Shown here piece after piece: positions 4,141 to 64,000 of a stretch of 64,000 nucleotides of DNA (position 1 is the first letter of the stretch; the number at the start of each line of letters is the position of its first letter). The stretch lies in the NCBI RefSeq assembly GCF_014842915.1, contig NZ_JACYXI010000005.1, positions 1 through 64,000 of the forward strand, in the 5' to 3' direction. The translations under genes were made by a program, and so were the position numbers. The notes beneath the pieces were generated by a model. It had not been told where the DNA came from and made no database searches. It worked only from the letters and a program-made list of their open reading frames with translations. Origin of the DNA: Roseibium litorale (lineage in GTDB: Bacteria; Pseudomonadota; Alphaproteobacteria; Rhizobiales; Stappiaceae).

Positions 4141-5529
4141 TTACAAGCGCGGACAGCCGCCTTCGCCAATATCCCAGAAGAGACCGGCCATCAGGCGCAG
4201 CGCATCCCGGCTGAGAGATTTGAGGGCATGTTCATTCGGCGCATGCTGCGAGCAGGCCCGGTAGGAATGCGGCACCCAGACGGTCGGCAGACCAAGAATA
4301 TCCGTAAAACTGTCATTGGGCAGCGAGCCCGCCAGATTCGGCAGCACATGCGGCGCGCGCCCGCCTGTGCGGGTGAGCGAGTCTTTCACATAAGTCACCC
4401 AGGGATGATCAGGATCGAGCCGCGTGGCGCGGAAGAACCCGCGATCGTGGGGCACGATCTGGACTTTCTCAAAACCATGCTCATCGAGGTGACGGCGGAG
4501 AGACGGCAGAACGGCGTCCGCGTCGGTTCCAACCACATAGCGCAGCTGGCAGGCAGCGCGCGCCCTGGCGGAAATCGCATTCACCGGCGCTTCCGGAACG
4601 CCGCTGGTCATGGCCAGAATGGCAAAGCTGTTCCAGCCATAGGCCCGCTCAGCCGGCGTCAAGCTCTCCTCGCCCCAGTCCTTGTCGATCTGCGGTCCGG
4701 TTTCACTTTCGATCGGCAGACCGTCGAGCGCTTCGCGGATGGCCGGGGTCAGGCTGGTGGGACGCCATTCGGGGATCTTGAGCTGGCCCCGAGCGTCGGT
4801 GATGGTCGCAAGCGCCTGCACCAGGATCATCGCCGGATCGGCCAGAAGCCCGCCCCAATTGCCGGAATGATGCGCCCCTTCGCGCAGATCCACCACCAGA
4901 TCGAAGGTGATGCCGCCGCGCGACCCCATGAACATGGTCGGCCGGTCCGGCTGCAAGCGCGGTCCGTCGGACGCGATGAGTACGTCCGCCGTCAGCTTTT
5001 CTTTCTGGGCAGTGAAGAACTCGGCCAGACCTGATGAGCCGACTTCCTCACTCATTTCCACGACAAAACGGCTGTTGAAGCCAAGCTTGCCGCGGGCGGC
5101 GATCACCGCTTCCAGAGCCGCAAGGTTGATCAGGTGCTGGCCCTTGTTGTCAGCGGTGCCGCGGCCATAAAGCTTGTCGCCTTCTTCAACCAGCTTGAAG
5201 GGGTGCAGCCCTTCGCGCCACTGATCCGTCTGCGCACGGATAACATCGCCGTGGCCATAGGTCAGAACGGTCGGCAGGCTGTCGCCTTCATGACGCTCTG
5301 CAATCAGCAGAGGACCGCCGGACGGATCAGGATTCTCGAAGAGCTCGCAGGTAAAGCCCGCCGCTTCGAACCGCGGCTGCATCGCTTCTTTCAGATAGCG
5401 CAGCAGTTCAGGCTTCTGGACAGGGTTTTGGCTTTCCGTCTCGAACTCCACCAGGCCGGCCAGATCTTTTACAAACTGGCCGTCATCGAAATAGCTGGAG
5501 ACGTGGTCGATCGCTGCATCGCGGGTCAT
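4141..5529 (-). CDS. M20 family metallopeptidase (dipeptidase/ArgE-DapE type)
   Basis: Predicted zinc-dependent cytoplasmic peptidase of 462 aa. Metal-ligand and catalytic motifs are visible: [16 protein letters not shown], and the SEEVGSSG acidic pair, with a dimerisation domain in the middle and the C-terminal HAPNEHA region. ATG 5529 starts 4 nt after the stop of the upstream gamma-glutamyltransferase, indicating translational coupling; a longer start at 5568 would overlap that gene. It is the last gene of the dpp-type operon, so its probable job is to split the Cys-Gly or other dipeptides released by the gamma-glutamyltransferase. The exact substrate is inferred. Confidence 0.88.
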
Positions 5530-61629: not shown

Positions 61630-62133
61630 CTAGCCAGGCAATCCGAACTGGCCGAGCAAGCCGGACGGAAAGAGGCCAAACCCGACAAGCCGGTCATAGA
61701 GAAGAAGAAGCACCGCGATCACGACGGCCCAGAGGATGCTGCAGAGCGATCCGATAAGGAAATATTCCGCCCGGATCTGTTTATCGAGCTCCTTGTACCG
61801 CGCAGTGGTCTTGAGGGCGATCACAGCCACCAGCACCTCCCATTTCCCCAGAAGAAGGCCCGTGAGGATAAGCAGACGCTCCAGACCGCCGATAATGCGG
61901 CCAGCCTTCAGCTCCTTCTTGTCCGCCTCTTTCTGCTCATGCGAAGGCTCGCCTTCGCCCAAGGCGCCCACAGAAGATGTGTCCTGCTGCGGTAAGGCAG
62001 CCGGTTGCGGCACGACGGATTTGACCGACGAGGTGACGACCCATTTGATCAGACCATTGCCTGCCCACCAGATGAGCGGCAGAAAAACGAAATAGCCCAA
62101 CCCGATCAGGATTTCTTCAAGCATCCCCATCAT
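61630..62133 (-). CDS. DUF3307-like membrane protein, partner of SatD
   Basis: A 167-aa membrane protein: one N-terminal helix (about 5-32), a charged cytoplasmic linker rich in Pro/Gln/Glu, then RIIGGLERLLILTGLLLGKW, ALKTTARYKELDKQIRAEYFLIGSL and a last helix. The RIIG-LER and AEYFLIG-S-motifs match the C-terminal part of DUF3307 proteins, but the family's larger N-terminal membrane domain is missing. ATG 62133 overlaps the satD-like stop (ATGA). The conserved pairing suggests that the two act together. Function unknown. Confidence 0.65.
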   Translation of the reverse strand: MMGMLEEILIGLGYFVFLPLIWWAGNGLIKWVVTSSVKSVVPQPAALPQQDTSSVGALGEGEPSHEQKEADKKELKAGRIIGGLERLLILTGLLLGKWEVLVAVIALKTTARYKELDKQIRAEYFLIGSLCSILWAVVIAVLLLLYDRLVGFGLFPSGLLGQFGLPG

Positions 62134-62804: not shown

Positions 62805-62870
62805 AGGAGCTCCTTCGCCAGCTCAACCGCTGCCATTGCTGGCACGGAAGGTAGCACAAACGCTTCTTAG

Positions 62871-62944
62871 GAACCATAATGAGTTCACTTCATAATAACG
62901 AACCTAAAATGGTTCACTTTGAATTAATGAACTAAAACTGGTTC
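62871..62944. repeat. Three phased inverted repeats GAAC-N8-GTTC with 29-bp period
   Basis: Copies at 62871-62886, 62900-62915 and 62929-62944. Each has perfect GAAC/GTTC arms with an AT-rich 8-nt centre, and starts are exactly 29 bp apart; the second and third bases beyond the arms are also similar (ACTT after the first two). The array is 67-140 bp upstream of the SatD start. It looks like a multi-site operator. Confidence 0.8.
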
Positions 62945-63211
62945 CTCTTTCTTTCCGCAGGGCCCTACACGTCTCGCAGCAGATCCAGCCTGCGTCATCG
63001 CCCCCAAGATCTAGGCTCCGCCAACAATCAACCATCCCTCTGGATGGCATATGGTCAGCCACACCTCGTCCCGGTCAGGCCACCGAAGTTCCGCGCCCAA
63101 TCCTAAACGCGCCAGTGGCACTCAACGTAACAAGCTGACATCATAGCGCTTGGTGATCTGGACCCAACCGTATGCCCGGAGCCGACCCTTGCCGCGAACG
63201 AAAGCTTGAAT
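62945..63211. other. Intergenic region between the repeat array and the cfa-type gene
   Basis: 267 bp with no supported gene or strong hairpin. It presumably contains the promoter of the cyclopropane synthase gene and part of the divergent SatD promoter. Confidence 0.4.
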
Positions 63212-64000
63212 GTGACCGATAGCTTGAATAGTTCCAACAGCAGCGCGCATCTTGCCGAAGCCGTGCACACCGCAGTCGCCGCGTTGCGGCCCTATCTCAA
63301 TATCCATTTTTCCATGAGATTATGGGACGGTTCTATTGTCCAACTTGGAAAAGACGTGATCCCCGGCCTGCTGTTGACGATCAACGAGCCAGGTGTGCTG
63401 CCATCCCTGCTCAGACTGCCAACGCTCGACCGCTTGATCCGGCACTACGCACACGGCCACATCGATATCGAAGGCGGTACGATCGTCGATATAGGCATGC
63501 CTTTTGCCGTAGATAAAACAGCCCAGAGGCAGCTGCGGAAGATGAGCAAGCTTGCCGCAGTGAAGGCACTTTGGCCCATCCTGAAGGCGCCCGGCATCCC
63601 GCCCGACAAGACCCGGGGATTTGGCGCCGACGCTGACGGCAAAAGACGTCAGACAGCAGACAACAAACGCTTCATCGGCTTTCACTATGATGTCGGCAAT
63701 GATTTCTACAATCTCTTCCTTGACCCGGAGATGCAGTATTCCTGCGCTTATTTCCCGGAGCCGGAAACGGATCTCGATGCGGCCCAAGCCGCCAAGATCG
63801 AGATCACTTGCCGGAAACTGCGTCTCAAGCCGGGGGACAGGCTTCTCGATATCGGCTGCGGCTGGGGCGGTCTGCTCTGCCATGCGGTGATGCATCACGG
63901 CGCCATCGGTCACGGGGTTACCCTGTCAGAAGAACAACTCGCATTCGCCAAAGCGAAAGCGGAACGCCTGGGTCTTTCCGGCCGCCTCACCTTCGAATTG
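63212..64000 (+). CDS. Cyclopropane-fatty-acyl-phospholipid synthase family protein (partial, 3' end outside window)
   Basis: SAM-dependent methyltransferase of the Cfa/CmaS family, cut by the window end. The open frame runs from 63131 and reads MRLWDGSIVQLGKD from ATG 63314, a family N-terminal motif; then GFHYDVGNDFYNLFLDPEMQ, YSCAYF, and the SAM site LLDIGCGWGGL. It would add a methylene group across double bonds of membrane fatty acids, or a related step. The start is uncertain: GTG 63212 is used, but TTG 63206 or 63224 are possible and none has a good ribosome site. Confidence 0.87.
   Translation, partial: MTDSLNSSNSSAHLAEAVHTAVAALRPYLNIHFSMRLWDGSIVQLGKDVIPGLLLTINEPGVLPSLLRLPTLDRLIRHYAHGHIDIEGGTIVDIGMPFAVDKTAQRQLRKMSKLAAVKALWPILKAPGIPPDKTRGFGADADGKRRQTADNKRFIGFHYDVGNDFYNLFLDPEMQYSCAYFPEPETDLDAAQAAKIEITCRKLRLKPGDRLLDIGCGWGGLLCHAVMHHGAIGHGVTLSEEQLAFAKAKAERLGLSGRLTFEL

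Follow-up and report, generated by a model that had tools for sequence, protein, structure and literature searches.

The satD locus of Roseibium litorale

The DNA analysed here, a 64,000-nucleotide stretch of the Roseibium litorale genome (the window), contains a two-gene unit on its minus strand, composed of satD and the gene for a small membrane protein, here called the partner. The unit is preceded by an array of three inverted repeats, and beyond the array lies a divergent gene related to cyclopropane fatty acid (CFA) synthases, which was not judged part of the module (Table 1). The SatD identity of the first gene, proposed in the initial annotation, was confirmed by a match to PF16264 well above the gathering cut-off (E 3e-21). 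Among the best 80 of 368 relatives, the nearest named one is from R. suaedae, with 85% identity.

Table 1. Features of the satD locus in the window, in order of position. Dyads are written on the satD strand as left arm, middle and right arm.
Feature	Position	Strand	Remarks
Partner gene, 167 aa, three TM segments (simple hydropathy)	61630..62133	-	4-bp overlap with the satD stop
satD, 224 aa, PF16264	62130..62804	-	76.5 bits, gathering cut-off 29
Dyad 3, proximal, TGAACT-CATTAT-GGTTCC	62870..62887	-	65 bp to the satD ATG
Linker TTATTATGAAG, 11 bp	62888..62898	-	
Dyad 2, TGAACC-ATTTTA-GGTTCG	62899..62916	-	
Linker TTAATTCAAAG, 11 bp	62917..62927	-	
Dyad 1, distal to satD, GGAACC-AGTTTT-AGTTCA	62928..62945	-	
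Divergent neighbour, CFA synthase-like (PF02353)	63206..64000	+	260 bp from the array to its first listed start

The sequence GAAC-N8-GTTC occurs at 62871-62886, 62900-62915 and 62929-62944, with a period of exactly 29 bp, as had been annotated. The three repeats lie where they had been placed, but the array is slightly wider than the 62871..62944 assigned to it, extending from about 62870 to 62945. The conserved arms and AT-rich centres that had been described correspond to 18-bp dyads with 6-bp arms of the TGAACC type and AT-rich middles. Read on the satD strand, the dyads are GGAACCAGTTTTAGTTCA, TGAACCATTTTAGGTTCG and TGAACTCATTATGGTTCC; the 11-bp linkers between them, TTAATTCAAAG and TTATTATGAAG, resemble each other. 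The location directly before the two-gene unit was also correct, the nearest dyad being 65 bp away from the satD ATG.

The repeat is more frequent in the window than expected by chance: GAAC-N8-GTTC has five matches in the window against 0.95 expected, and none of 100 shuffles reached five. The single dyad pattern is frequent in the genome (156 places versus 95 for the reversed control), so the special feature of the locus is the phasing. In the 4.94-Mb assembly, the 29-bp doublet was found in this array only, as two overlapping doublets with no mismatches, and the reversed-pattern control gave none. A whole-genome search for a diverged second array with up to three mismatches yielded 32 places versus 30 for the control, the best other place having two mismatches, which gives no sign of such an array. 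The phased repeats are not common to many unrelated promoters, and the possibility of a regulon of a general factor was rejected because no other array was found in the genome.

A consensus scan detected no sigma-70-like promoter at the window array. The stretch of about 260 bp that separates the array from the CFA start listed first (62946-63205) lacks plus-strand frames of at least 60 aa. It contains, on the minus strand, a terminator-like site with a 7-bp stem (63031-63048).

Phased dyads upstream of satD in other genomes

The distribution of satD is patchy. The gene was found in 9 of the 37 genomes of the genus (its own included) and in none of the 24 others of the order, and among 385 genomes sampled in the class it was present in the R. 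litorale genome only. With the centre genome included in each case, satD was present in 14 of 348 genomes of the family of the Caulobacter locus, in 40 of 295 of the family of the Algoriphagus locus (where the best 30 of 41 matches were taken for the array analysis), and in 2 of 345 of the family of the Maritimibacter locus. Full-length satD was found in 15 of 295 genomes of the genus of the Sphingomonas locus; the other 22 matching genomes contain only short matches to the C-terminal half, in which this part of the SatD profile matches stretches of other proteins (E 1e-4 to 1e-3). Copies of satD also occur on large plasmids, in Agrobacterium, in Sphingomonas and in haloarchaea. A phage origin of the gene was rejected, as no match was found in phage and viral collections.

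The 163 satD matches were condensed to 114 non-redundant loci, counting identical last 120 upstream bases once; two loci, L012 and L073, had no upstream sequence. The upstream regions were scanned for pairs of similar palindromes, allowing every period between 21 and 45 bp, with a threshold score of at least 16 of 20. Dyads paired at 28 or 29 bp were detected in 90 of the 114 loci versus 0-13% of shuffles, so that phased repeats also precede most orthologous pairs, often with arms other than GAAC/GTTC. The remaining 24 loci fall below this strict threshold. Pairs were present in 50 of 68 loci of Proteobacteria (shuffles 2.0-2.5%), in 34 of 37 of Bacteroidota and allies (6.4-13.1%) and in both haloarchaeal loci, which are closely related copies with 29-bp phasing (0%). 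The signal was weak in Firmicutes, where only 4 of 7 loci reached the threshold (shuffles 8.6%). A third haloarchaeal SatD, 31% identical to the first, is preceded by a pair with the maximum score of 20 at 29 bp, which was equalled by none of 500 mononucleotide shuffles.

The preference for these two periods was clear in a set of 82 upstream regions, obtained from 90 by removing eight duplicate or cut loci by hand: 39 loci had a pair at period 29 and 26 at period 28, against 0-11 at any other period. In control stretches the corresponding values were 2 and 1 of 81, with 0-9 elsewhere, and shuffles gave about 1.5% per period. Among 32 held-out non-redundant loci, 26 of them from one Bacteroidota family, all had a pair at 28 or 29 bp versus 2 of 32 control stretches; in this AT-rich set, 24 loci scored at 28, 19 at 29 and 0-10 at other periods. 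Four of these loci (L122-L125) had been viewed by eye earlier, so 28 were unseen.

The number of dyads per locus varies. Of 64 proteobacterial arrays, 24 contain two dyads, 33 contain three and seven contain four, and 100 of the 111 steps between dyads measure 28 or 29 bp when steps of 27-30 bp are searched. No -10 element at a sharp position relative to the dyads was seen across these 64 loci. In L032 and L057 (Rhodobacteraceae group) and L027 (Novosphingobium) the outer arms are asymmetric, with GTAACC outside and TGACCC inside, making the dyad pair as a whole one large palindrome.

Inspection by eye of the eight other Roseibium copies with upstream sequence (L005-L011 and L013) revealed the same kind of array upstream of satD, more degenerate in L006 and L007 and with GAAG-N8-CTTC arms in L010 and L013. 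These arrays are present whether the next gene is CFA synthase-like or HPr-like. Judged from sequence comparison, the array belongs to satD.

The SatD protein, its partner and the spelling of the arms

PF16264 matches all 80 SatD sequences of the family alignment (A2; E up to 10). Two putative domains were delimited in the window protein: a cyclase-like N-terminal domain at about residues 9-152, and a C-terminal helix-turn-helix (HTH) at about 155-213, with R188 in the recognition helix. The HTH-like C-terminus noted in the initial annotation was borne out at the family level, since scans at E up to 10 matched HTH_23 in 33 of the 80 sequences (best E 2.4e-6) and Sigma70_r4_2 in 14 (best E 2.4e-4). 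The window SatD alone gave HTH matches below the cut-offs, to Sigma70_ECF (0.003), UPF0122 (0.025) and HTH_23 (0.073).

The N-terminal domain weakly resembles class III cyclases. Invariant columns in the 80 sequences include D16, S20, N41, T53, T55, G57, D58, E59, F60, Q61 and R118. The order of motifs in class III cyclases, DIVxS followed by GD.F, is also found in SatD, and the distance between the two Asp residues is 42 (D16-D58) versus 43 in the cyclase L100 of the same genome. Searching PDB with the N-domain profile gave four sequences at E up to 10. One of them was 1ybt (E 1.7; lipJ in the PDB list), the class III adenylyl cyclase Rv1900c, with an alignment that stays in register over DIVGST, GDGF and RIGIHAGEVE. 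The cyclase E values in two PDB profile searches were 1.4 and 1.7, and a thiamine enzyme and HR1 outscored 1ybt; as other PDB entries match better, the cyclase link is a lead only.

Profile comparisons gave a similar picture. Two hhalign runs against cyclases returned P values of 0.12 and 0.022 (probability 0.5 and 2%), the second being against the cyclases of the same genome and in the same register as the 1ybt alignment. Against GGDEF the P values were 0.0011 and 0.0099 (probability 20 and 4%), with only a short stretch around GDEF aligned. When the N-domain profile was run among 1703 decoy reading frames, 4 of 11 matches were GGDEF or cyclase sequences (19 offered), all at E above 1. The searches in the reverse direction recovered 3 and 14 of the N-domains from the 114 SatD loci, together with 13 and 14 decoys.

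The partner had been described as DUF3307-like, which held in part. The window protein has no match to PF11750 (DUF3307) at E up to 10, nor to any Pfam family at E up to 1e-3, but its family profile, built from 61 proteobacterial partners, matches the C-terminal part of the DUF3307 partners of Firmicutes and haloarchaea. Since the profile also matches this part of the longer proteins, the window partner is a member of the core family, without DUF3307. The longer partners of Firmicutes and haloarchaea (L093, L078, L084, L123 and L124) have a C-terminal membrane segment of the type GRxIGxxER ... AEYFLxGSLxS. That segment makes up the partner in Proteobacteria and Bacteroidota. In the two longer partners that were scanned, L093 and L123, DUF3307 occupies the N-terminal half (9.6e-19 and 3.3e-16).

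The partner profile matches a frame in 107 of the 114 satD loci, which includes all 60 loci whose partners went into building the profile (the window among them) and 47 of the 54 others. Loci without a match are L013, L050, L089, L077, L088, L090 and L205; in the first three, at most 94 bases remain beyond satD. Neighbour clustering covered 77 of 84 loci, the others being under 5 kb, and among the 25 largest clusters only satD and the partner recurred widely on the sense strand, the next cluster comprising 13 loci. Clusters of 42 and 18 loci were set aside as presumed shadow frames, as the examples printed for them lie on the opposite strand and overlap either the partner or satD.

By eye, and with one printed sequence per cluster, genes resembling topoisomerase or gyrase subunits were seen near satD in several Bacteroidota (L076, L080, L081, L082, L087 and L091) and two Betaproteobacteria (L030 and L066). 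On the Agrobacterium plasmid pAt, the partner-profile frame (L122:4630-5091) overlaps the satD end; the record annotates this frame from a later start (4819-5091), with which the N-terminal part would be lost. The same neighbourhood contains HEPN/nucleotidyltransferase and HipA-like genes.

The arms of the dyads were compared with the SatD sequences in 67 proteobacterial loci, with the register set by an aid that prefers half-sites beginning with T and ending in CC and has no preference at position 2. Left-arm identity was 0.77 within a locus, a value inflated by the choice of sites, for which agreement was one criterion, versus 0.60 between loci. Residue 188, in the predicted recognition helix, ranked first of 217 SatD columns in excess mutual information with the half-site (1.03, followed by 0.78), and decoy DNA from 66 loci gave 0.01-0.14 at this column. 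Columns 79, 22 and 75, outside the HTH, reached 0.63-0.64, indicating the background due to shared ancestry. All 20 loci with Arg188 have G at half-site position 2, as do 12 of 45 with other residues, and all 13 loci with Gln or Pro have A, compared with 5 of 52 with other residues. Arg-guanine and Gln-adenine are classical contacts. His188 is found with G, T or A, so the residue-base code is not clean.

A tree based on the N-domain only, which leaves out two fragments, contains two well-supported independent Arg188 switches (five in all), and where position 2 differs it does so in the expected direction. As independent switches are few, shared ancestry inflates the residue-base counts, and the coupling is not significant after correction for ancestry. 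In Bacteroidota, TTTCA arms (L079, L206 and L207) occur where the recognition helix begins with Arg-Ser-Leu, while TTGCA/TTGTA arms (L081, L082 and L186) occur mostly with other residues; L085, with Arg and TTGCA, is an exception. The helix start in this group is possibly a second specificity switch, with exceptions.

SatD as a candidate autoregulator

The SatD family (PF16264) takes its name from the sat operon of Streptococcus mutans. The window protein shares membership of the family with the SatD of that operon, scoring above the gathering cut-off, and its gene too is followed by a membrane-protein gene. No SatD operator array or DNA binding was described in the titles and abstracts among the matches listed for the open-access literature. 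Two reports tie satD to acid tolerance in streptococci (PMC11323703, PMC10326533). According to the first, satD is the only accessory gene of S. pyogenes whose essentiality ranks in the top quarter, and 178 of 249 genomes contain it (PMC11323703).

From the sequence evidence, the three dyads are very likely operators of SatD itself, whose dimers would repress the satD-partner operon. That SatD binds the dyads is the part of this reading held with most confidence. Its action is probably repression and not activation, and the cooperative binding hinted at in the initial annotation is moderately likely. We lean, to a similar degree, toward an N-domain that is a cyclase-like ligand domain, and a toxic or envelope role for the membrane partner is a guess. 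The suggestion of a self-controlled module was well placed: arrays precede satD pairs, are absent elsewhere in the genome, which would be the pattern for an autoregulator, and have arms that covary with the predicted recognition helix.

In the proposed mechanism, each 18-bp dyad would be occupied by a SatD dimer, which uses its C-terminal HTH for binding and recognises the G at position 2 of the half-site by R188 in the recognition helix. With a spacing of 28-29 bp, two to four such dimers would cover the promoter region and shut the satD-partner operon. Repression by promoter occlusion is assumed here, given that no promoter was detected at the window array and no sharp -10 across loci. Steps of 28-29 bp correspond to 2.7-2.8 helical turns (2.76 turns for 29 bp at 10.5 bp per turn), and adjacent dyads therefore do not share one face of the helix. 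The repression could perhaps be relieved by a ligand that acts on the N-terminal domain, or by way of the membrane partner, and the small membrane protein would then be expressed.

In a possible, though rather unlikely, alternative, the two genes constitute a module of defence or of a toxin-antitoxin-like kind; SatD would then keep a harmful membrane partner in check and would not be a housekeeping stress regulator. The patchy distribution of satD, the overlapping genes and the plasmid copies point in this direction. Autorepressing antitoxin operons with several operators exist, and like the satD pair they comprise two overlapping genes, an HTH in the first protein and several dyads in front, with a patchy distribution and some plasmid copies. 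Unlike them, the satD pair has a putative cyclase-like N-domain, and PADLOC gave no match for either protein (0 families at E up to 1). Neither the lack of matches in the phage and viral collections nor the housekeeping neighbourhood common to the Roseibium copies favours such a module. The Pycsar system consists of a cyclase and a membrane effector, and the satD pair, with a cyclase-like gene followed by a gene for a TM protein, is superficially alike; it differs in having no PADLOC match, and in its HTH and predicted operators. The essentiality of the accessory satD gene in S. pyogenes, as reported in PMC11323703, would be in keeping with SatD restraining a harmful partner, although it may have other causes.

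Returning to SatD as the predicted reader of the array, it is very unlikely that another host transcription factor binds the dyads and controls satD. Dyads of 16-18 bp are bound by many bacterial regulators. However, further targets would be expected for such a factor, yet no second array was found in the genome; the arms change along with the SatD recognition helix; and satD is preceded by this architecture in both Bacteria and haloarchaea, which probably do not have the factor in common.

Still less probable is that the array acts as RNA, in the form of tandem hairpins in a leader or an antisense transcript. The strand folds well (z -5.4) and one dyad is terminator-like on the plus strand, but palindromes fold by construction. 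Among 1050 arm positions, 290 are mismatched (59 G-U, 47 A-C and 184 others), close to the 48, 48 and 193 expected from equal frequencies of the 12 mismatch types, which indicates no clear wobble tolerance. Arm sequences also tend to agree among the copies of one locus, an agreement that hairpins do not need, and this reading was rejected on the mismatch pattern and the shared arms. Finally, the array lies in the upstream region common to both genes in the window, but it can hardly be the operator of the divergent CFA synthase gene with satD as a bystander, being 65 bp from satD versus 260 bp from the first listed CFA start, and this reading was rejected because the neighbours change (HPr-like by eye in Roseibium L005, L006, L007 and L009, and different in other groups) while the array stays with satD.

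In its widest form, which we regard as speculative and doubtful, the satD pair of Bacteria and haloarchaea could be a self-repressed module of signalling or self-restraint, in which a protein with a class III cyclase-like domain and an HTH senses or makes a nucleotide, occupies 29-bp-phased operators that co-evolve with one helix residue, and gates a membrane effector that is harmful if unrestrained. The analysis would make SatD an autoregulator open to testing: its operator and its specificity residue (R188) can be predicted, and arm/helix pairs that occur in nature are available for swapping. It also offers a lead on why satD is essential in the tested S. pyogenes strains and yet missing from others. 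A 29-bp operator lattice extending from Roseibium to haloarchaea, with a spelling that appears to drift with its putative reader, offers a good natural experiment in protein-DNA co-evolution.
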